From positions 124,001-188,000 of IMG/VR virus record IMGVR_UViG_3300032293_001706: DNA of 64,000 bases. The stretch is one strand, 5' to 3'. How positions within the stretch are numbered: position 1 is the stretch's first letter; each line of letters starts with the position of its first letter. The notes beneath the pieces were generated by a model, which was given only the letters and a program-made list of their open reading frames with translations, was not told the DNA's origin and ran no database searches. The stretch is from a virus. Below are positions 437 to 48,310 of this stretch, piece by piece. Made by a program: the position numbers and the translations under genes.

Positions 437-1347
437 TGGCTTTAGGAACCTATGGGATAACAAGACCTGCTGACATGTCACCTGAAGATGTGGAAATCAT
501 AATGATTTATACACCTTCAAGAGATTATACTGCAACTCCTGTTATCAAGAAATTAAACGCAGCACAAATACTAACACCTTACTTTAACAACTCTAGTACG
601 GGTGGAGGAGCAAATGAAATTCTGGGGGGTATGTATAATTTAAGACTACCTTCAAATGAATTTAATAATATTGGAATCTATTCATTAATGATTAGGCCCG
701 CAGAAATCAGAACAACATTAACTGATTGTGGTGTATTGGCATCACTTCCTTCTGTTAAAGGTTTAATTGTTGATTTAAATAATGTTCCTGTAACATTCAG
801 GTCAAGATTTATATCTCAAGGACTTGTTGGATATAGAGTTGAATATTTAAATAGTGACGGTACAAAAATACCTAATTTTTACAGAGTTATCACATCATCA
901 TTTTATGTGGATACTGTTAACACTCAACCAACAGGTGCTAATGTGAATAGTGTAAGATATAGGTACATTGATTCACCAGCAGCAAGAAATTTGGTTTTTA
1001 TGACAGTGACACCATCAAGTTCACCATCTAATAATCCTGCAGCAATACCATATATAGGTCAGCCTGGTCAACAAGTTATTCTAACAAATACATTCTTTAA
1101 TCCGTTTATGATAGAAATTGAAATGGCGGAATATGACCTAAATTCAGTTGCTATTGCTCTTTATGGTAATCAGGTTAAGGCGGTTGAACCTGGATTATAT
1201 ACCATTTATGATTCACAAAGTAGAATCTATAAACAATATAACCTATTTGAAATCAGAAGCGACTTTAATGATACATTATATGAAGTTCGTCAAGATAGGG
1301 GTAATAATATCGATACAAGTCAAAGTTTTGATAATATAGTTCAATAA
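436..1347 (+). CDS. Putative baseplate/tail structural protein
   Basis: A 303-residue protein starting with MALGTYGITRPADMSPED and overlapping both neighbours by one base, so it is probably translationally coupled to them. It has no signal peptide or membrane segment; the composition (Asn, Thr, Val, Ile, Pro rich) suggests a beta-rich structural protein. It lies immediately before the tail protein I-like gene, where baseplate wedge proteins are common. I recognise no named family, so the call is contextual. Confidence 0.6.
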   Translation: MALGTYGITRPADMSPEDVEIIMIYTPSRDYTATPVIKKLNAAQILTPYFNNSSTGGGANEILGGMYNLRLPSNEFNNIGIYSLMIRPAEIRTTLTDCGVLASLPSVKGLIVDLNNVPVTFRSRFISQGLVGYRVEYLNSDGTKIPNFYRVITSSFYVDTVNTQPTGANVNSVRYRYIDSPAARNLVFMTVTPSSSPSNNPAAIPYIGQPGQQVILTNTFFNPFMIEIEMAEYDLNSVAIALYGNQVKAVEPGLYTIYDSQSRIYKQYNLFEIRSDFNDTLYEVRQDRGNNIDTSQSFDNIVQ

Positions 1348-4271
1348 TGACTAGAATAGTTGTTCCAAATACAGGTGCGGGATTTAATAGTCCTACTGAA
1401 AATTTAGTAGGTTTTCAGTCAGTGCAAGGTGGTGGTTTGACAAATACAAACTTCACATTTGATTATGGTATTACTGAAAAGATAAATCAAGAATATCAAA
1501 CAGGTGTATTTTCAGAACCTATTACACTTTCTACGTTAAACATTGAAACAATTGAGGAAGCAAGAGTTACTGCATCCAAAGATTTAAAAGTATATCCAAA
1601 TTTTGATTTAACGGAAGTAACAAACTTCACACTATATGGTTCATTAACAAAAAGACTTGAAGTATCGTTAACACAAATTATCAATTTCTTTCCCGCAGCA
1701 CTTGAAGTTGACCAAGTGTATTATGATTACACAACAGGTTATACCGCAACAAATGTAATTTATAATCAGAATGAAGATTTTACAACATTTGATATTGATG
1801 TAACAAGAATAAAAAATATTTTCGATATTGATTATTCTGTTAATGCTGAAAGAAATATATTATTAAGACCAACACCTGTAAGTCCGTTAAGGGCACTTAC
1901 AACAAGATATCAAGACTATTCATTATTCATTTCAACTGGAAGTACAGAATATAGAGTAATTTTATTTGAACCTAGTGATAGTTTAACAACAGGAACAATA
2001 ACATTTACTGTTTCAGGTAATCCGTTTTCGAGTCAAACATCAATTATTGATTCACTTGTTATTAGACCTAGTAAGTTAAAAACTGAAATGGTTTTTGCAA
2101 ATGATTTTGATGAGGTTGAAAAATTCTTATTAAATAGATTTGTTACACCAAAATATACATCACAATTTAAAATACCTCGTCAAACAGATAATGGAACTTA
2201 TTATACTGCATATGAATATCTTACTTGGCCGTTATTTGGTATCTGGAATATTGATATCCTAACTGCGGCATATGATTCATATGTTGAACAATTGGCACAA
2301 TTTGGTGCTGAAATAGATGATTTTAAAACAAACTTAATAAGTAGGTTTTTAACAACAGGAGCGTTTCATGAATTTGATACTCCTGACCAAAAAATTGAAA
2401 AGGTTCTTCAAATTTATTCAAGAAGTTTCGATGAAACAAAAAAATTCATTGACGCATTGGCAACAATGACTTCTGTTTCATATGTATCAGGTGATGACAT
2501 TCCATCGGCATTATTGATATATTTGGCAAAAACATTAGGATGGGATACAAACATATCTCCAATTTCAAATGAAGATTTTCTAAAATCGGTTTATGGGGTT
2601 AAAAATAAATCAATTTATGAAGGTTGGACAAGAGACCAAACACCAACAGAATTAAATTTTAAATATTATAATAAATTAATTTTAAATTCCGCTCACTTAT
2701 ATCGTTCAAAAGGAACAAGACGTTCAATTGAATTCTTAATGAAAACTATTGGCGCTCCACAAGCACTTGTCGAATATAATGAAACAATTTATGTTGCGGA
2801 TAGAACCATTAAATATTCAGATTTTTTAACTAAATATGCTAAAATATCTGGAGGTACATATGTTCAGAACATACCAGGATATTTGGTAGGAAGTGAATAT
2901 AAGTTTAAAGGACAAACATATACCGCCTTTACAACAAGTCAAAGTATTACAAATTCTCAATTTACATTAAATGATTATCCAATAAATGAAGATGGGTATC
3001 CTATAATGCCACAAGCAACTGATGACTTCTTTTTCCAAAAAGGAGGAGGATGGTATCAACAAACAAAGTTTCATAATTCAGGACAACAAGCGGTTGTAAC
3101 TAACCAAAATTTCACAGGTGAAAGTCCAAACTCACAACTTCAAACAATACCACCGTCATATGGGACAGATTATTTAAATAGGTTTATAAACTTTCCAAAT
3201 ATGGATGGTCTTGGTTTTAATCTAAGACAAGTTAAAACAAATGATAAATCAACATACACAACATCAAGTTCATTTGATTCAAATACATTGGTTGTTAATA
3301 CAAAAAATGTTGATTTATTTTTAAATGTTGGACAAGGTATTACATATAGTGTATGGGAAAATTCACGAGACGAAGAATATCCAATACCATATTCAGGACT
3401 TTCAAATCCATATCCAACACCAGGAAATTTAGATTGGACGGTTATAAATCCACAACCACAAATTGAAACTTTCGCAGAATTTGCACAAACATTCTATAAA
3501 AACATGATAAATGTAAGAAACAGATGGTATACCACAGATGGTAAATCATCGGGTTATCCAACATTACAATCTGTTTATTGGAATTACTTACAATCATTAG
3601 AAAAGGCGGGTATTGACATTAGTCATTACACCTATCAAAAAATGATTGATTATACTATAGGTATTGGTGACTATTGGACAAAATTGGTGGAACAAACAGT
3701 ACCATCAACAACAATATGGAATGGAGGTATAAAATATGAGAATTCCGCTTTTCACAGACAAAAATATGTTTATAGAAGACAAAGAGGATGTATCTTTACT
3801 GCGGTTCCATGTACTCCATGTCAAGCAATAGGACCGATATTTATGAATGATTGTATTGATGAAACAATTTCAGGGGCAACATATCCTTGGAGTGGAACAT
3901 CATCAACAATAGAGTCATTTTCAGACGCATTAATTAAATCTGTTAATCAAGTTTTATCATCAAGTGGTTATACATTATCAGAATGTGTAAAAGAATCTTT
4001 AACTTCAATATGGTATGTTGATTTGAGATTAGACAATACTGTTTTGGTTCAAGAACCGTTTTATACAGGGTATGGTATAAATGATATTCCAAGTGATAGT
4101 GATTGGTTGACCGCTCTTGAAAACAAACTTATGTATCTTTATCAATACGGATTAAATTATAATGTAAACGCTGAAAGAGTCATATTATCAAATTCAGGTT
4201 GTATGGAACTATTTACAAACAAGACCTTATCATTAAATGTAGGTATAAACGTATCAATCAATTGTAATTAA
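1347..4271 (+). CDS. Large baseplate protein with P2 gpI-like region
   Basis: A 974-residue protein. Around residues 445-475 it carries SAHLYRSKGTRRSIEFLMK followed by TIGAP, which resembles the conserved region of phage tail protein I / baseplate wedge proteins (P2 gpI type: a Y(R/L)-x-KGT segment before a helical part). The preceding 200 residues are helical and contain WPLFGIWNIDILTAAYDSY; the C-terminal third is Cys-containing and may attach fibre proteins. One-base overlaps on both sides fit a co-translated baseplate operon. A baseplate protein linking tail tube and fibres is the best reading; its exact T4 counterpart is uncertain. Confidence 0.65.
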   Translation: MTRIVVPNTGAGFNSPTENLVGFQSVQGGGLTNTNFTFDYGITEKINQEYQTGVFSEPITLSTLNIETIEEARVTASKDLKVYPNFDLTEVTNFTLYGSLTKRLEVSLTQIINFFPAALEVDQVYYDYTTGYTATNVIYNQNEDFTTFDIDVTRIKNIFDIDYSVNAERNILLRPTPVSPLRALTTRYQDYSLFISTGSTEYRVILFEPSDSLTTGTITFTVSGNPFSSQTSIIDSLVIRPSKLKTEMVFANDFDEVEKFLLNRFVTPKYTSQFKIPRQTDNGTYYTAYEYLTWPLFGIWNIDILTAAYDSYVEQLAQFGAEIDDFKTNLISRFLTTGAFHEFDTPDQKIEKVLQIYSRSFDETKKFIDALATMTSVSYVSGDDIPSALLIYLAKTLGWDTNISPISNEDFLKSVYGVKNKSIYEGWTRDQTPTELNFKYYNKLILNSAHLYRSKGTRRSIEFLMKTIGAPQALVEYNETIYVADRTIKYSDFLTKYAKISGGTYVQNIPGYLVGSEYKFKGQTYTAFTTSQSITNSQFTLNDYPINEDGYPIMPQATDDFFFQKGGGWYQQTKFHNSGQQAVVTNQNFTGESPNSQLQTIPPSYGTDYLNRFINFPNMDGLGFNLRQVKTNDKSTYTTSSSFDSNTLVVNTKNVDLFLNVGQGITYSVWENSRDEEYPIPYSGLSNPYPTPGNLDWTVINPQPQIETFAEFAQTFYKNMINVRNRWYTTDGKSSGYPTLQSVYWNYLQSLEKAGIDISHYTYQKMIDYTIGIGDYWTKLVEQTVPSTTIWNGGIKYENSAFHRQKYVYRRQRGCIFTAVPCTPCQAIGPIFMNDCIDETISGATYPWSGTSSTIESFSDALIKSVNQVLSSSGYTLSECVKESLTSIWYVDLRLDNTVLVQEPFYTGYGINDIPSDSDWLTALENKLMYLYQYGLNYNVNAERVILSNSGCMELFTNKTLSLNVGINVSINCN

Positions 4272-11046: not shown

Positions 11047-12669
11047 ATGAGTTTTCCATATAATAATCCGCAAACCGCAACAAGACAAAATTCACAATTA
11101 TCCGTAAATAGACAATCTAATTTCGGAGTTACGTTTTCTGTTTCAAATACAGGTGGTTATATGGAAGTTGCAAATCTATCTGATTTGGAATGGACATTTT
11201 CAGGTCAAACGGGAAATATAACAGGGTCAACAATTCCAATTCAATTTTTTAAAGGTTCAGGATTTATTCCTGATGTAATAACATTAAATTCTGATTATTT
11301 TTCTTCAGGTAGAAGAAGAATTGGAATGTTGGTTTATGTGTATGAAACCGACAAAATATATCAATATAATATTGATAATTATGAATCACTTTGGAACGCA
11401 GCTACAGGGGCGACTAACACAGTAATATTTACTGATTATGGTGCAAACGTTAGGTCGACAACACAACAAGGTATTGATTTAATAACTGCGTGGACGGGTT
11501 CAACAATTGAAGGACAAAATGGTATTACAAGAACAAACGCAAATTGGGTAATATTCAACGGTTCATATCCTGCAATTACAGGTGGAACGTATTCGGCAAA
11601 TACAATTGTATTAACAACAAATACAGGTACTGAAATTCAAATCACGGGAATTACGTCAGGTCAGGGAGCGGGGATTACAGGTGGAACTTTTGATTATAAT
11701 GCAAGAAATCTTTACCTCTACGATGTAACAGGTGGAACAATTACAATATCAGGACTTACTGACACTTACATTACAGGTGGAACATATAACACTGGTACAC
11801 AAAGTTTAACGTTAAGAGATAACTATGGTGGAACTGTGGTAATAACAGGTTTTACGACAAGTTCAGGTACGTCGGGTACTTCAGGAAGTAGTGGTTCTAG
11901 TGGAAGTTCAGGAACATCAGGCTCTTCGGGAAGTAGTGGTACTTCAGGAAGTAGTGGTATTAGCGGAAGTTCAGGAACATCAGGCTCTTCGGGAAGTAGT
12001 GGTACTTCAGGAAGTTCAGGCTCTTCAGGAAGTAGCGGAAGTTCAGGAACATCGGGTATTTCAGGTGTGGATGGAACTAATGGTTCTAGTGGAAGTTCAG
12101 GAACATCAGGTTCTTCAGGTAGTAGTGGGGTTAGTGGAAGTTCAGGAACATCAGGTTCTTCAGGTAGTAGTGGGGTTAGTGGAAGTTCAGGAACATCAGG
12201 TTCTTCAGGAACATCAGGTTCTTCAGGAAGTAGTGGTACTTCAGGAAGTAGTGGGGTTAGTGGAAGTTCAGGAACATCAGGTTCTTCAGGAAAATCAGTA
12301 ACAGGAGGAACCTTTAATTCACAAACAGTAACATTAACTTTAAATAATAATGATAATAGTAGTGTAGTTATTTCTGGTGTTACAGGTAACTATATTACAG
12401 GTGGTACTTATTTTAGCGCAACAACAACCTTAGAATTATATGATTCTACAGGTGGAACTATTTCAGTAACAGGCTTTACCGCTGGTTCAGGTGGAGGAGG
12501 TTCAGGAACATCAGGTACTTCAGGAAGTAGTGGTATTAGCGGAAGTTCAGGAACATCAGGTACTTCAGGAAGTAGTGGAACAAGTAGTGTAAACATAACA
12601 TACGGGACTGCCGCTCCTGATAATGGAACGGGAAATGATGGAGATGTGTATTTACAATATACAGCATAA
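11047..12669 (+). CDS. Collagen-like Ser-Gly/Thr-Gly fibre protein
   Basis: A 540-residue fibre. Residues about 175-270 and 418-480 contain copies of a ~32-residue beta repeat (ITGGTY...T..L.LYD.TGGTI.ITGFT). Residues about 271-416 are an uninterrupted G-x-y tract dominated by GSSGTSG, broken only by GVDGTNG, which keeps glycine at every third position as in collagen-like phage fibres, although proline is absent. A shorter tract follows at about 483-515. The C-terminus (INITYGTAAPDNGTGNDGD then VYLQYTA) resembles fibre tips. The Ser/Thr density makes it a plausible glycosylation substrate. An alternative is a flexible linker rather than a triple helix. Confidence 0.65.
   Translation: MSFPYNNPQTATRQNSQLSVNRQSNFGVTFSVSNTGGYMEVANLSDLEWTFSGQTGNITGSTIPIQFFKGSGFIPDVITLNSDYFSSGRRRIGMLVYVYETDKIYQYNIDNYESLWNAATGATNTVIFTDYGANVRSTTQQGIDLITAWTGSTIEGQNGITRTNANWVIFNGSYPAITGGTYSANTIVLTTNTGTEIQITGITSGQGAGITGGTFDYNARNLYLYDVTGGTITISGLTDTYITGGTYNTGTQSLTLRDNYGGTVVITGFTTSSGTSGTSGSSGSSGSSGTSGSSGSSGTSGSSGISGSSGTSGSSGSSGTSGSSGSSGSSGSSGTSGISGVDGTNGSSGSSGTSGSSGSSGVSGSSGTSGSSGSSGVSGSSGTSGSSGTSGSSGSSGTSGSSGVSGSSGTSGSSGKSVTGGTFNSQTVTLTLNNNDNSSVVISGVTGNYITGGTYFSATTTLELYDSTGGTISVTGFTAGSGGGGSGTSGTSGSSGISGSSGTSGTSGSSGTSSVNITYGTAAPDNGTGNDGDVYLQYTA
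11862..12296 (+). repeat. Tandem repeat encoding (G-S/T-S)n
   Basis: About 435 bp of short tandem units (TCAGGAAGTAGTGG, TCAGGAACATCAGG and variants) with higher-order periodicity near 45 bp. All units are multiples of 9 bp, so copy-number change keeps the frame. A shorter block of the same units follows at about 12487-12585. Confidence 0.85.
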
Positions 12670-21489: not shown

Positions 21490-22292
21490 ATAAAGTAGTT
21501 ATAACTTTAAGTACTGTACCCGAAAGATTAAACCATCAAGTAACAGACGGTTTTAACGAGGTAATTAAATCACTTTGTGAACAAAACCATAAAAATTATG
21601 AAGTTCATATAAATTTACCTTTAATTTATAAAGTAACGGGTGAAGAATATATAATTCCAAAATGGTTGGATGAATATTTAAACGAATATCAGCATCTAAA
21701 AATTTTTAGAACTGAAGATATTGGACCCGTGACAAAAGTAATTCCGACAATTAAACGTGAAAGTAAAGATACATTATTAATTGTGGTTGACGATGATTTA
21801 ATATATCATCCTGACATGATTAATGAGCATCTTAAATGGCAGAAAGAATTAAAAGGTAATGTAATTCTATATGACGGTAGAAATTTGGTTGAACCAAAAT
21901 ATGGTGATTTACGAGATTTTTGGGTGTTAACTGTTAAAGAAGTTTTAAGAGTAAAAAATTTACAACATTATAAATCAGTATCTTATTTTGTTAATTACTT
22001 CGAAGAAGATTTTTTTGAAAAATTTGTAGGTAAAACAATGTCGGACGATGTATTAATGTCCTATTATTTTAAATATAAAAAGATAAAGATGTTTGTCGTA
22101 CCCTTTAAAGAAGATATTGGTAATATCCAATCATTTGATGAGTGGTATGCATATCATGGTGTTTGTACATTTCCTGTTTTACGACACGCAAATAGTCCTG
22201 ATAATACGGGGGCAAATCATCCAAATATGTTTGAACCTAAGTTTTTTCTTCCTGAAGAATTTAAATATATTGATAATTTATCTTTGGATTAA
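21486..22292 (+). CDS. GT-A fold glycosyltransferase
   Basis: A 268-residue protein beginning NKVVITLSTVPERL, with a DxD-type site LLIVVDDDLIYHPDMI and a later TMSDDVLMSYYF. This is the layout of small GT2/GT32-like transferases from bacteria and large phages. The ATG overlaps the previous stop. Its donor and acceptor cannot be read from the sequence; its neighbours imply sequential sugar addition to the same glycan. Confidence 0.65.
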   Translation: MNKVVITLSTVPERLNHQVTDGFNEVIKSLCEQNHKNYEVHINLPLIYKVTGEEYIIPKWLDEYLNEYQHLKIFRTEDIGPVTKVIPTIKRESKDTLLIVVDDDLIYHPDMINEHLKWQKELKGNVILYDGRNLVEPKYGDLRDFWVLTVKEVLRVKNLQHYKSVSYFVNYFEEDFFEKFVGKTMSDDVLMSYYFKYKKIKMFVVPFKEDIGNIQSFDEWYAYHGVCTFPVLRHANSPDNTGANHPNMFEPKFFLPEEFKYIDNLSLD

Positions 22293-30903: not shown

Positions 30904-30946
30904 CCCCAAAAAAAAACTGTTCCATATCTGTAACACGACGAAAATA

Positions 30947-30975
30947 AAGAGGACCAAAAGTCCTCTTTTTCTTTT
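30947..30975 (+). terminator. Intrinsic terminator
   Basis: Perfect 8-bp stem AAGAGGAC / GTCCTCTT with loop CAAAA, followed by TTTCTTTTTTG. It is nearly identical to the terminator at 32395, and each is followed directly by an ATATTTAT motif and an array gene. Confidence 0.85.
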
Positions 30976-30980
30976 TTGTT

Positions 30981-30989
30981 ATATTTATC
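30981..30989 (+). promoter_or_regulatory. ATATTTATC phage promoter-like motif
   Basis: ATATTTATC starts 14 nt after the terminator stem at 30947-30967, within 6 nt of its T-run, and ends 17 nt before the ATG at 31007. A terminator directly followed by this motif argues that the motif starts a new transcript. The leader AAGACCTTTAAATGG is shared with the 32455 gene. Confidence 0.55.
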
Positions 30990-31006
30990 ATTAACAAGAC
31001 CTTTAA

Positions 31007-32206
31007 ATGGAAGAAGAAATTATATTTGAATTGTTAGATGATTTTACATCTGGTGGGAAGTTATATTATGATGATGAATATAAGTCAATATGGATGATAA
31101 ATCCAGATACAAAACAATGGATATTTGAATTCAAAAAAACAGGAACTTTATGGTATTCTTATCCGGTTTTTACCAAAATTTTTAAATACGTTTCGATGGA
31201 TTATCCTGATTTTAACCCGTATATTAAAAAGTGGGTTGAAAGAATCCTTCAAAAGGAGGCTAAAAACACCCAATCAATGGGGGGTCAGGAGACATTTTGG
31301 GTTGAAAGAATCCTTCAAAAGGAGGTTAAAAACACCATTGAACTTAATGGCTCAGCCGCCCCAACGGTTGAAAGAATCCTTCAGCAAGATAATAATTTAG
31401 ACTTAAATGAAAACATTAATGAAAGTGAAGAATCCCCATTAGTTGATGAAGAAATTATATTTGAATTATTAGATGATTTTACATCTGATGGGAAGCTATA
31501 TTATGATGATAAAACGGAATCCATATGGATGATAAATCCAGATACAAAAGAATGGATATTTGAATTCGAAAAATCAGGAGATTTATGGTATCATTATAAA
31601 GTTTTTGAAAGTATTTTTAAATACATTTCGATGGAATATCCTGATTTTGAACCATACATAACAAAGTGGGCTGAAAGAATCCTCCAAAAGGAGGTTAAAG
31701 ACACCGCAAACTCGTATTGGGTGCTGCCGATGGCCGCTGAAAGAATCCTTCAAAAGGAGATTAAAGACACCATTTTTGTGCAACATCTGCAAAACTCTGG
31801 AGTTGAAAGAATCCTTCAACAAGATAATAATTTAGACTTAAATGAAAACATTAATGATGGCGAAGAACCATCATCAGTTGATGAAGAAATTATATTTGAG
31901 TTGTTAGATGATTTTACTAATGATTATGATAAGTATCAATCTTATAATGGAGATACTTTTCTTATTAATCCTAATAAGAAAGATTGGTTAATAGAAATAG
32001 ATGAAGAAAACTATTTATGGTATAACAAAGATATATTTGTAAAAATTTTCAAATACGTTTCGATGGAATACCCTGATTTTGAACCATATATAACAAAGTG
32101 GGTTGAAAAAAAAATTAACATTAAAATTAAAGAAACTTATGATATTTTCTGGGGTAGAGGGGGTAAAATAATAGATGTAATTACAAATGGATTTAAAGAA
32201 ACATAA
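31007..32206 (+). CDS. Three-domain protein with two in-frame CRISPR-like arrays
   Basis: A 399-residue protein with three copies of a ~80-residue domain (EEIIFELLDDFTSDGKLYYD ... IWMINPDTKEWIFEF ... FKYVSMEYPDFEPYITKW) at about residues 1-75, 146-221 and 287-370. After the first two copies the reading frame runs through arrays of a 12-residue repeat, (V/A)ERILQKE(V/A/I)K(D/N)T, separated by unrelated 10-residue segments, and each array ends in a degenerate copy VERILQQDNNLDLNENIN. The third copy has no array (KWVEKKINIKIKET). No known family. VERILQKE resembles the amphipathic tags of other proteins in this window. The late-type motif upstream suggests expression with virion genes. Whether the DNA array, the peptide or both are functional is open. 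Confidence 0.6.
   Translation: MEEEIIFELLDDFTSGGKLYYDDEYKSIWMINPDTKQWIFEFKKTGTLWYSYPVFTKIFKYVSMDYPDFNPYIKKWVERILQKEAKNTQSMGGQETFWVERILQKEVKNTIELNGSAAPTVERILQQDNNLDLNENINESEESPLVDEEIIFELLDDFTSDGKLYYDDKTESIWMINPDTKEWIFEFEKSGDLWYHYKVFESIFKYISMEYPDFEPYITKWAERILQKEVKDTANSYWVLPMAAERILQKEIKDTIFVQHLQNSGVERILQQDNNLDLNENINDGEEPSSVDEEIIFELLDDFTNDYDKYQSYNGDTFLINPNKKDWLIEIDEENYLWYNKDIFVKIFKYVSMEYPDFEPYITKWVEKKINIKIKETYDIFWGRGGKIIDVITNGFKET
31235..31402 (+). CRISPR. CRISPR-like array 1, in frame (2 repeats + degenerate end, 2 spacers)
   Basis: Repeats at 31235-31270 and 31301-31336 (36 bp, starting GTTGAAAGAATCCTTC, ending AACACC) and a third at 31367 that matches only its first 17 nt. Spacers at 31271-31300 and 31337-31366 are exactly 30 bp, unrelated, and 50% and 53% G+C. 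A hairpin CCTT/GAGG is possible in the repeat. No cas gene is in the window, so this is array-like by geometry only. Confidence 0.55.
31670..31837 (+). CRISPR. CRISPR-like array 2, in frame (2 repeats + degenerate end, 2 spacers)
   Basis: Repeats at 31670-31705 and 31736-31771; degenerate end repeat from 31802. Spacers at 31706-31735 (60% G+C) and 31772-31801 (37%) are 30 bp each and unrelated to those of arrays 1 and 3. The first repeat has GCT for GTT and CTC for CTT, changes shared with the first repeat of array 3. Confidence 0.55.
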
Positions 32207-32286
32207 TGAGAAAAAAAGTTGGTTATGTTAAAAAATTGGCCTATATTTGTAATAGGAAATCGATGAAAAAAGTCCAAAGGTTTTGA
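32206..32286 (+). CDS. Possible 26-residue basic peptide
   Basis: An ATG overlapping the preceding TAA by one base opens a frame for MRKKVGYVKKLAYICNRKSM and six more residues, nine of them Lys/Arg in total. The one-base coupling is the only support beyond composition; a host-type promoter lies inside the frame. Confidence 0.3.
   Translation: MRKKVGYVKKLAYICNRKSMKKVQRF
32219..32249 (+). promoter_or_regulatory. Host-type promoter TTG-N20-TATATTTG
   Basis: TTG at 32219-32221 and TATATTTG at 32242-32249, 20 nt apart. It would start a transcript near 32256 that ends at the terminator at 32395, giving an RNA of about 160 nt. Confidence 0.45.
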
Positions 32287-32422
32287 GGACATAAAAATAA
32301 AAAACCTGATTGGAAAGGTTGAAGGTAACCCTCCCAATGAACCCGAAAGAAAATCTTCTTAGCAAGTCTACCGCGAACTAGAGTTAGACAAAAAAAGAGG
32401 GCCAAAAGTCCTCTTTTTCTTT
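32256..32422 (+). ncRNA. Putative short structured RNA upstream of array 3
   Basis: Between a host-type promoter and an intrinsic terminator lie about 140 nt without a convincing ORF. Local inverted repeats are visible: GGTT-GAAGGT-AACC and GTCTA ... TAGAC. The equivalent unit before array 1 carries a 43-codon ORF instead. I looked for an anti-repeat to the array repeat and found none, so a tracrRNA is not supported. Confidence 0.35.
32395..32422 (+). terminator. Intrinsic terminator
   Basis: 8-bp stem AAGAGGGC / GTCCTCTT with one G-U pair, loop CAAAA, then TTTCTTTTTTG. Near-copy of the terminator at 30947. Confidence 0.85.
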
Positions 32423-32428
32423 TTTGTT

Positions 32429-32437
32429 ATATTTATA
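32429..32437 (+). promoter_or_regulatory. ATATTTATA phage promoter-like motif
   Basis: ATATTTATA lies directly after the terminator T-run and 17 nt before the ATG at 32455, the same spacing as before the 31007 gene. Confidence 0.55.
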
Positions 32438-32454
32438 AGTAATAAGACCTTTAA

Positions 32455-33528
32455 ATGGAAGAAGAAATTATATTTGAGTTATTAGATGATTTTACATCTG
32501 ATGGAAAGTTATATTATGATGATGAATATGACTCCATATGGATGATAAATCCAAAAACAAAAAAATGGATATTTGAATTCGAAAAATCAGGAAATTTATG
32601 GTATTCTTATTCAATTTTTAACAAAATTTTTAAATACGTATCGATGGAATTCCCTGATTTTGAACCATACATAACAAAGTGGGCTGAAAGAATCCTCCAA
32701 AAAGAGGTTAAAGACACCTTTCATGGTCTTCGAAACTTTCCCGCTCCAGTTGAAAGAATCCTTCAAAAAGAGGTTAAAGACACCCGGATGGACAGCTATA
32801 CATCAACAGCGGTGGTTGAAAGAATCCTTCAAAAAGAGGTTAAAGACACCTCATCCAGTTCGCTTTTCTTAGGGAAGGTGGTTGAAAGAATCCTTCAAAA
32901 AGAGGTTAAAGACACCGAACATTTTGAAGAGCGTTTCATTGAAGTGGTTGAAAGAATCCTTCAAAAAGATAATAGTTTGGATTTAAATGAAAGTTCACCG
33001 ATTAAATTAATCCAATTATTTAAAGAAGTTTTAATTGAAGGTCAAATAGATGGAACATTAGTTAATAAAACTTATGATGGTTATAATGTTAAATTTATTT
33101 TATCTAAACATGCCGATGAAAGAAGAAATAGAGTTGATAATTATTCAGAAATAACATATGAAGAACTAATATCCGCAATTGAGGAAGCAATTCCTAAGAT
33201 TGTTGATAAAGCGTTTAAAACACATAAACGAAATATTGTAGGACCTGTTAACAATGGAATGATATATATTAGAGATAGTAAGACAGGACAATTAAATAAA
33301 AAAGACGCTCAAGAGTTTTTCATCTACAAAAAAGAATCAGAATTACAAATTAAATGTAAGGTTTTAAATTTTGATAAAAATAAGGGTTATATTGAAATTA
33401 TAATAAAAACTTTAATGAAAAGTCGTACAGATAAATTAAATATGAACGACCCGAAAAGAAACACCCTGTATTTAAATATTTTTGAAAACATTAATAACTT
33501 TGAGAATTATTTTATAATAGAAATATAA
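32455..33528 (+). CDS. Single-domain protein with in-frame CRISPR-like array and C-terminal domain
   Basis: A 357-residue paralogue of the 31007 product. Residues 1-76 are the EEIIFELLDDFTSDGKLYYD domain, residues 77-165 the array region with four copies of (V/A)ERILQKEVKDT and a fifth shortened copy VERILQKDNSLDLNES, and residues about 183-357 a separate domain (KLIQLFKEVLIEG ... VKFILSKHADERRNRVDNYS ... IYIRDSKTGQL). The KHADERR segment resembles the (S/K)xHAxxR motif of small nuclease or toxin-like domains, but this is weak. The array starts 228 nt after the ATG in both genes. Not a known family. Confidence 0.6.
   Translation: MEEEIIFELLDDFTSDGKLYYDDEYDSIWMINPKTKKWIFEFEKSGNLWYSYSIFNKIFKYVSMEFPDFEPYITKWAERILQKEVKDTFHGLRNFPAPVERILQKEVKDTRMDSYTSTAVVERILQKEVKDTSSSSLFLGKVVERILQKEVKDTEHFEERFIEVVERILQKDNSLDLNESSPIKLIQLFKEVLIEGQIDGTLVNKTYDGYNVKFILSKHADERRNRVDNYSEITYEELISAIEEAIPKIVDKAFKTHKRNIVGPVNNGMIYIRDSKTGQLNKKDAQEFFIYKKESELQIKCKVLNFDKNKGYIEIIIKTLMKSRTDKLNMNDPKRNTLYLNIFENINNFENYFIIEI
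32683..32982 (+). CRISPR. CRISPR-like array 3, in frame (4 repeats + degenerate end, 4 spacers)
   Basis: 36-bp repeats at 32683, 32749, 32815 and 32881; the last three are identical, and the fifth at 32947 matches only its first 22 nt. Spacers at 32719-32748, 32785-32814, 32851-32880 and 32917-32946 are all exactly 30 bp, mutually unrelated and 47, 53, 47 and 37% G+C. Three of the four spacers end in GTG. Degeneration of the last repeat is typical of CRISPR arrays. Confidence 0.6.
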
Positions 33529-47098: not shown

Positions 47099-48310
47099 AT
47101 GTTAAAATCATATAAATATAAACTTAATCCGAATGAGGAGCAAATTGTTTTGTTAAATAAACATTTTGGTTCTATTAGGTTTGCGTATAATTATTTTCTT
47201 AATGAAAGAAAAAAAGAATATGAAACAAATAAGCAAAGTTTAAATTATTATGATAATGCAAAATCATTAACCGAACTAAAAAAACAAGAAGAATACTCTT
47301 GGTTAAACGAAATTAATTCACAATCATTACAAGTATCATTAAAACATTTGGATGATGCATATAACGGATTTTTTAAAAAAAGAACAGGTTTTCCAAAATT
47401 TAAATCAAAACACACAAAAAATAGTTTTAAGGTTCCACAGTTTGTTAAATTGGAAAAAGGCAAGTTAAAAATACCAAAATTTAATAAGGCAATTGATGTT
47501 ATTTTACATAGAAGTTTTAATGGCAAAATTAAATCTTGTACAATATCAAAAACACCAACAAATGAATATTTTGTTTCCATCCTTGTGGAAACCAAACATA
47601 AGAAATTGGACAAAACCGGAAAATCAATCGGGATTGATTTGGGGCTGAAAGATTTTCTTACAACCAGCGATGGTTATAAATATAAAAATAATCGTTATAC
47701 AAAAACTTATCAAACATTACTTAAAAAAGCTCAACAACATTTGAGTAGAAAAACAAGAGGTTCAAACAAATATCAAAAACAAAAACTGAAAGTTGCAAAA
47801 CTACACAAGAAGATAACCAATTCTCGTTTAGATAATTTGCACAAAGTATCCACAGATTTGATTCGAAAATACGATTTAATTGTATTAGAAGACTTAAATA
47901 TTAAAGGAATAATTAAAAATCATAAACTTTCAAAACATATTGCTGATGCCAGTTGGTCAAAGTTCATAGAACTTTTAAAATATAAAGCGGAATGGAATGA
48001 AAAAGAAATTGTTAGAATTGATAGATTTTTTCCTTCCAGTAAAACTTGCAATTGTTGTGGATATATAAATCAAAATCTAAAATTAAATATGAGAGAATGG
48101 ACTTGTCCATCTTGTAATACAAAATTAGATAGAGATTTAAATGCTAGCCAAAACATCCTTAATGAAGGATATAAAATAATATCGGACGGGACATCCGATA
48201 ACAGAAGTCGAGGCGAAATAAGACCAACTTTAGTTGGCACAACCGATGAAACTTTTAAAGTTCTGAATATTTATAATTCAGAAGCCCAACCATCTTTAGT
48301 GGTTGGGTAG
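47099..48310 (+). CDS. tnpB: TnpB RNA-guided nuclease
   Basis: A 403-residue intact TnpB: N-terminal MLKSYKYKLNPNEEQIVLLN, RFAYNYFLNER, GFPKFKSKH, then RuvC-I IGIDLGLKDFLTTSDG (D180), RuvC-II LIVLEDLNIKGI (E264), zinc finger C317-x2-C320 ... C336-x2-C339, and RuvC-III LDRDLNASQNIL (D344/D346). All catalytic positions are present. TnpB cleaves DNA using an omega RNA from the 3' end of its own gene and right end, with the guide read from flanking DNA. Its stop codon lies just after the right-end hairpin. It is close in length to known active TnpBs (about 400 aa). Confidence 0.9.
   Translation: MLKSYKYKLNPNEEQIVLLNKHFGSIRFAYNYFLNERKKEYETNKQSLNYYDNAKSLTELKKQEEYSWLNEINSQSLQVSLKHLDDAYNGFFKKRTGFPKFKSKHTKNSFKVPQFVKLEKGKLKIPKFNKAIDVILHRSFNGKIKSCTISKTPTNEYFVSILVETKHKKLDKTGKSIGIDLGLKDFLTTSDGYKYKNNRYTKTYQTLLKKAQQHLSRKTRGSNKYQKQKLKVAKLHKKITNSRLDNLHKVSTDLIRKYDLIVLEDLNIKGIIKNHKLSKHIADASWSKFIELLKYKAEWNEKEIVRIDRFFPSSKTCNCCGYINQNLKLNMREWTCPSCNTKLDRDLNASQNILNEGYKIISDGTSDNRSRGEIRPTLVGTTDETFKVLNIYNSEAQPSLVVG
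48285..48307 (+). repeat. Right-end hairpin of tnpB element / omega RNA 3' scaffold
   Basis: 8-bp stem CCCAACCA/TGGTTGGG with loop TCTTTAG, overlapping the last codons of tnpB. In this family the region upstream of the right end forms the omega RNA scaffold, and sequence from about 48311-48320 onward would be the guide. Confidence 0.7.

Follow-up and report, generated by a model that had tools for sequence, protein, structure and literature searches.

The stretch of DNA analysed here (the window) covers 64,000 nucleotides, bases 124,001-188,000 of the 190,552-bp record of a T4-like phage (G000), which has homologues of the portal, the major capsid protein, the prohead protease and T4 RNA ligase. 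Two ORFs on the plus strand contain the features of interest. ORF A (31007-32206, 399 aa) consists of three tandem modules of about 435 bp, each with a copy of an N-terminal domain, and the first two modules are followed by an array. Domain copy 1 (MEEEIIFELLDDFTSGG...YIKKW, 31007-31234) abuts array 1 (31235-31366) on its upstream side. This array comprises repeats at 31235-31270 and 31301-31336, spacers S1 (31271-31300) and S2 (31337-31366), and then a degenerate terminal repeat (31367-31402). The same arrangement is found after domain copy 2 (31442-31669), where array 2 (31670-31801) has repeats at 31670-31705 and 31736-31771, spacers S3 (31706-31735) and S4 (31772-31801), and a degenerate terminal repeat at 31802-31837. 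Domain copy 3 (31877-32128) has no array and is an 'empty' site (KWVEKKINIK). ORF B (32455-33528, 357 aa), for which a Pfam search gave nothing above the cut-off, is composed of the domain, array 3 (32683-32946, four full repeats with spacers S5-S8), a degenerate terminal repeat (32947-32982) and a C-terminal region.

The window thus holds, between 31235 and 32946, eight full 36-bp repeats and eight spacers of exactly 30 bp, all in frame. The initial annotation had described three translated arrays of this geometry in two ORFs, and the present analysis confirms them with the same coordinates. The repeats are nearly identical among themselves, whereas the spacers are mutually unrelated and GC-rich (37-60%, compared to 30% for the window), and the 3' half of the terminal repeat of each array (31367, 31802 and 32947) is unrelated to the repeat. 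Near-identical terminator-like stretches (AGTCCTCTTTTTCTTTTTTGTTATATTTAT) lie upstream of both array genes, at 30942-31006 and 32390-32454, suggesting that gene and upstream region were duplicated together. Elsewhere in the window, at 11859-12310, a phage protein has collagen-like tandem repeats, and ORFs in the same half of the genome match Pfam Collagen and SprB.

The claim of the initial annotation stands for the window but covered only two of five such genes and 8 of 25 spacers. In the complete record, five genes share the N-terminal domain of about 80 aa followed by arrays, the array beginning immediately after the domain (...YITKW) in each of them, and all 25 spacers are 30 bp long and in frame. 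The window repeat recurs at 18.7-19.8 kb of the record in a 718-aa ORF, whose final 210 residues match phrog_36119 (no assigned function) and whose matches to nucleotidyltransferases are weak; because of this recurrence, the window arrays are not a chance occurrence. A diverged version of the repeat is present at 41.2-41.7 kb in a 640-aa ORF (40.1-42.0 kb), which is found in an independent contig as well; the spacer at 41.67 kb is AT-rich and its flanking repeats are degraded. The fifth gene (189.99-190.55 kb) contains nine copies of a sister repeat, GTTGAAGACACCATTCAAAATGGGGTTAAGAACACC, with 27-28/36 identity to the window repeat and the ninth copy cut by the end of the record, together with 8 further spacers. 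A probable head/scaffold-region protein of the same phage (20869-22101 of the record; 4870-6099 of contig L015) has the motif VEKILSKYF at 21820, its DNA showing 25/36 identity to the window repeat, and the viral contig L012 has SKVERILQKYF. Judging from this likeness, the array repeat may have been derived from a native phage peptide motif.

The origin of the spacers was examined by joining them with runs of N and comparing them with whole genomes, the E-values being given per genome. In the freshwater Flavobacteriales MAG RE-26jul17-241 (G003), S6 and S7 match at 30/30 positions (E 3e-8) and S8 and S15 at 28/30. The 70 genomes of the family of this MAG provide further matches for S5 (28/30), S18 (29/30), S23 (27/30) and S25 (28/30), of which S25 is the least secure, because it lies at a gene start and is in part a widely shared motif. 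With reversed spacers as a control, nothing in the same 70 genomes matched at E<=0.001, and one match was obtained at 0.011. The initial annotation had proposed to search the spacers against genomes, with matches to homologous proteins of related phages at graded divergence pointing to an ordinary repetitive protein; what is found instead is bacterial chromosome, at up to 30/30, with no comparable matches in the reversed control. At the sequence level, the spacers are thus identified as captured bacterial chromosomal DNA.

Within the window, S5 (32719-32748) is antisense to a YyaL/DUF255-type thioredoxin-like gene, S6 (32785-32814) is sense to an unnamed gene, S7 (32851-32880) is antisense to thrS, and S8 (32917-32946) is sense to the gene of a large protein, possibly of gliding or surface type. 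S10 matches at 25/30 at the DNA level, and its complement encodes FSVVRYGNVI, a motif of the pseB-type genes that it matches. Taken together, the antisense sites are in thrS, a glutamate/leucine-type dehydrogenase gene, the YyaL/DUF255-type gene and pseB, and the sense sites in relA/spoT, accA and two genes of surface or unnamed type; these gene names come from reading translated ORFs, with annotated records for RelA/SpoT and pseB only. Sense and antisense sites are about equally frequent and the frames are mixed, which agrees with a random capture of chromosomal DNA but not with protein mimicry or the selection of antisense guides. Inspection by eye of about 13 flanks, which were taken from relatives rather than from the source strain, showed no apparent protospacer-adjacent motif. 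For most of the 25 spacers the source strain was not found (the MAGs are incomplete); S15 had no exact copy in genome contigs, the core of S12 had none in viral contigs, and annotated phage records contained nothing matching the domain or the spacers.

The arrays are not confined to one assembly. A profile of the domain detected 27 viral loci, 26 of them besides a near-identical contig found earlier, and the repeat pattern GTTGAAGAYACCATTCAAAATGGGGTKAA detected 109 stretches of viral DNA. From 104 loci, 134 arrays with 328 distinct 30-bp segments were obtained, some of the contigs being near-copies of one another, and the domain with its arrays recurs in more than 100 other viral contigs. In L116, positions 1204-4200 are occupied by successive array stretches, at least two of which are separate genes with the domain. 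The spacers of at least six other phages match bacterial genes in family or order relatives of the host, including clpX, ftsH, a GH92-type gene, PBP1A and rpoB. In L116, spacers #1 and #2 match G053 and #4 matches clpX of G071/G073; L122 #1 matches G054/G057, L107 #6 matches ftsH of G348/G353, L144 #6 matches G373, L164 #4 and L168 #6 both match G130, and L201 #6 matches rpoB of many genomes. Since the spacers of other phages also match genomes around G003, host capture is a general property rather than a peculiarity of a single assembly. Large phages of freshwater bacteria carry translated CRISPR-like arrays with in-frame 30-letter pieces of host chromosome.

The reading frame is conserved very strictly. 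A search for repeats on the DNA alone, in which open frames were not required, returned 337 distinct spacers. All 337 spacings between repeats are multiples of three, and 298 of them are exactly 66 bp. The 298 distinct 30-bp spacers contain no stop codon in the coding frame, whereas there are 109 and 170 in the two alternative frames, and for the 25 spacers of G000 alone the chance of finding no stop is 6e-4. Because the CRISPR arrays of the host family mix 29-bp with 30-bp spacers, a filter acting on the frame is the simplest reading. The arrays are strictly coding. Segments common to several phages, which must be old to be shared, have a pN/pS of 0.29, indicating from the sequences that these older segments are under purifying selection. 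Among the options raised in the initial annotation, the hypervariable peptide cassette is accordingly the best supported, on account of the conserved frame and of this selection.

The arrays also show turnover of whole units. L155, L201, L213 and L220 have the distal units EVDGMRIRSG, VLAKTDRLVG and SDRPFTFGSS in common, while upstream units have been gained and lost whole. Across 14 arrays, the farther a unit lies from the domain, the lower are its repeat identity, its adherence to a length of exactly 30 bp and its GC content (p 1e-4, 1e-4 and 0.003, respectively, values that are optimistic because the 14 arrays are partly related). The polarity is CRISPR-like, the young units being those next to the domain. 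Recombination between repeats contributes as well, since some of the differences are internal and the same units occur in non-homologous arrays. Conserved segments of 10-27 residues, such as EYGDWLDGDER, EKSLQIDGSCV and TPSGYLGSIEMKGKIVHQIESPKQNNE, are common to non-homologous arrays of different phages. A near-identical array of 23-24 units is present in 14 contigs from different metagenomes (L144, L147, L148, L150, L156, L181, L184, L189, L191, L199, L200, L204, L206 and L209), which shows that an old array can persist almost unchanged.

The product would be a repeat protein in which a constant 12-residue segment (VERILQKEVKDT or VEDTIQNGVKET) alternates with a variable 10-residue segment, the latter being effectively random because it derives from either strand of host DNA and from any frame. 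Structure prediction of ORF B from an alignment of 28 relatives (the prediction without alignment was unusable) gave a fold for residues 1-80, the domain, with a pLDDT of about 90 or more, and the array repeats were predicted poorly, with low confidence. A comparison of the domain fold with the PDB returned no relative, and the only structural matches of the model were uncharacterised proteins of uncultured phages. One array gene, at 18.5-20.6 kb of the record, lies near head genes, in line with a possible location in the virion. The benefit to the phage may, with a chance of about one half, lie in having a protein that diversifies rapidly and is possibly part of the virion.

The best explanation of the whole, to which we assign a probability of roughly 0.5, is that these are translated CRISPR-like arrays fed by host DNA and giving rise to a variable repeat protein. 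The anatomy, the host origin of the spacers, the strict frame, the gain and loss of whole units and the selection on old units are observed. According to the proposed mechanism, the repeat in the phage gene, at a fixed site after the domain of about 80 aa, would receive 30-bp fragments of the host chromosome. Each event would insert one fragment and duplicate the 36-bp repeat, thereby adding one 66-bp (22-codon) unit, and only units that keep the frame open would survive. Some of the captured segments would later become fixed and then be kept by purifying selection.

Cas1-Cas2 catalyses a reaction of just this type, inserting a fragment of fixed length (30 bp) and duplicating a 36-bp target in the process. 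The most likely integrase, at about even odds, is the CRISPR adaptation complex of the host acting in trans. The CRISPR arrays of the host family have spacers of 30 or 29 bp, predominantly 30 bp, and G008, a genome with Cas9-Cas1-Cas2 and 30-bp CRISPR spacers, matches phage spacers in relA (28/30) and accA (27/30). Cas1 is present in only 10 of the 70 host-family genomes, and it was not detected in G003, G004, G053, G054 and G057, which are MAGs and probably incomplete. A Cas1 encoded by the phages themselves was considered and rejected, as a Cas1-like gene is absent from 21 phage records, five of them larger than 200 kb. A precedent for integration in trans is found in Flavobacterium columnare, where the Cas1 of one system (II-C) supplies the array of a second one (VI-B), whose 36-bp repeats are alike mostly at the leader-distal GTTGT end and which acquires DNA from host and phage alike (PMC8092290). 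By analogy, integration in trans would be plausible for the phage repeat. No leader is evident here, since synonymous conservation is not elevated in the codons at the end of the domain.

The repeat itself is phage-specific. None of the 70 host-family genomes contains it within 3 mismatches, and the comparison with CRISPR repeats suggested in the initial annotation showed no close likeness, the identity to eight host-family repeats being at most 19/36 and the likeness confined to the ends (GTTG...ACACC vs GTTG...ACAAC). A supposed likeness to Cas13b repeats could not be confirmed and was dropped. Host CRISPR spacers compared with these phages gave nothing convincing. The CRISPR-like reading of the initial annotation hence holds for spacer capture and for the gain and loss of whole units, but not for cas genes in the phages or for a match to a host repeat. 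Given these two results, and with no evident protospacer motif, its other suggestion, a solitary-repeat or crRNA decoy, is not supported.

The main rival to host Cas1-Cas2 is a phage enzyme, so far unrecognised, that would introduce 30-bp pieces of host DNA, such as breakdown products of the host chromosome, through a 36-bp staggered cut. Such an enzyme would account for the phage-specific repeat and for the presence of the arrays in over 100 viral contigs even where Cas1 was not detected in the host, as is often the case. However, most of the approximately 104 array loci share only the array genes themselves, and no other gene of G000 adjoins arrays in more than 11 loci (with flanks of at most about 12 kb). 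The phage records, as noted, have no Cas1-like gene, and spacers of exactly 30 bp are found in the host-family CRISPR arrays, too. We consider this enzyme about half as probable as the host complex.

It is less probable still that the arrays act as a sink for adaptation, diverting the spacer-integrating complexes of the host to harmless in-frame sites of the phage, so that no anti-phage spacers enter the host array and the peptides are by-products. The multiplicity of array genes (five in G000 and several in tandem in L116), the host origin of the spacers and the strict tolerance of frame would all be expected of a sink. Conservation of old segments between phages under purifying selection would not, nor would a 24-unit array that is almost unchanged in 14 contigs.

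The 36+30 geometry, the matches to host genes, several of them housekeeping, and a TnpB/Cas12f-like gene in the phage might suggest that the arrays provide crRNAs that guide a nuclease, from the host or from the phage, to genes of the host. This is very unlikely, as the repeat is not host-like, folds no better than shuffled sequences and has no Rfam CRISPR match (gathering threshold and E-value mode), the sites show no apparent adjacent motif and a similar number of sense and antisense positions, and the conservation of frame would be left unexplained. The gene at 47099-48310 of the window encodes an IS605-type TnpB with a Cas12f-like TNB domain, has hairpin-like sequences close to its 3' end and is apparently a separate mobile element. 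It was rejected as an effector of the arrays, being an ordinary TnpB about 14 kb away whose flanks are unlike the repeat by eye. Finally, an ordinary tandem-repeat protein with drifted variable segments and chance bacterial matches, although in frame and translated with a 22-aa period, can practically be dismissed in view of the 30/30 matches with a clean reversed control, their occurrence on both strands and in mixed frames, and the near-identical repeats next to unrelated GC-rich spacers that show no graded divergence.

The preferred reading, that host DNA is written into the arrays by host Cas1-Cas2, can be extended to the proposal that widespread phages have made the host CRISPR adaptation machinery an engine of protein diversification, writing 30-bp pieces in frame, some of which become functional; this proposal falls somewhat short of even odds. 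If true, it would constitute a new route to protein novelty, in which short stretches of host DNA are captured into coding sequence without a template, and a new use of the CRISPR-type integration reaction outside immunity, and past hosts would have left a record in the phage genome. Whether Cas1-Cas2 does write into a viral gene, the core of the argument, can be tested directly. As the spacers point directly to the hosts, they can serve to assign hosts to over 100 contigs of uncultivated phages.

With the type II CRISPR arrays of the host family (e.g., C20 of G008, with Cas9-Cas1-Cas2, and L096), the phage arrays share direct repeats, unique spacers of predominantly 30 bp, a degenerate last repeat and the turnover of whole units. 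They differ in being located inside coding sequence without cas genes nearby, in their 36-bp repeat (mostly 46-48 bp in the host, with unrelated sequences) and in having spacers that match the host chromosome. In terms of what defines a CRISPR locus, constant repeats with unique spacers, captured DNA, and polarity with a degenerate terminal repeat are all found, while cas genes in the genome or a repeat matching a host CRISPR are not. Diversity-generating retroelements, which use a reverse transcriptase, a template/variable repeat pair and adenine-directed mutation, likewise direct hypervariability to a phage protein. In the arrays, by contrast, the variation consists of insertions of captured host DNA; no template repeat is seen, and there is no reverse transcriptase among the Pfam matches listed for G000.

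Viral CRISPR mini-arrays and single repeat units are likewise array-like elements in viral genomes, but the mini-arrays use the host's own repeat with one or two spacers that in most cases target related viruses (PMC11656645), whereas the present arrays have phage-specific repeats, up to 24 units, translation and host-derived spacers. The F. columnare VI-B case resembles them in its 36-bp repeats, limited repeat similarity and uptake of host and phage spacers, its target array being bacterial, non-coding and Cas13b-linked (PMC8092290). Our searches of the open-access literature found no description of arrays such as these. They match neither the pattern of an ordinary repeat protein nor that of a conventional CRISPR locus, and look like a so far undescribed viral way to build variable proteins from host DNA.
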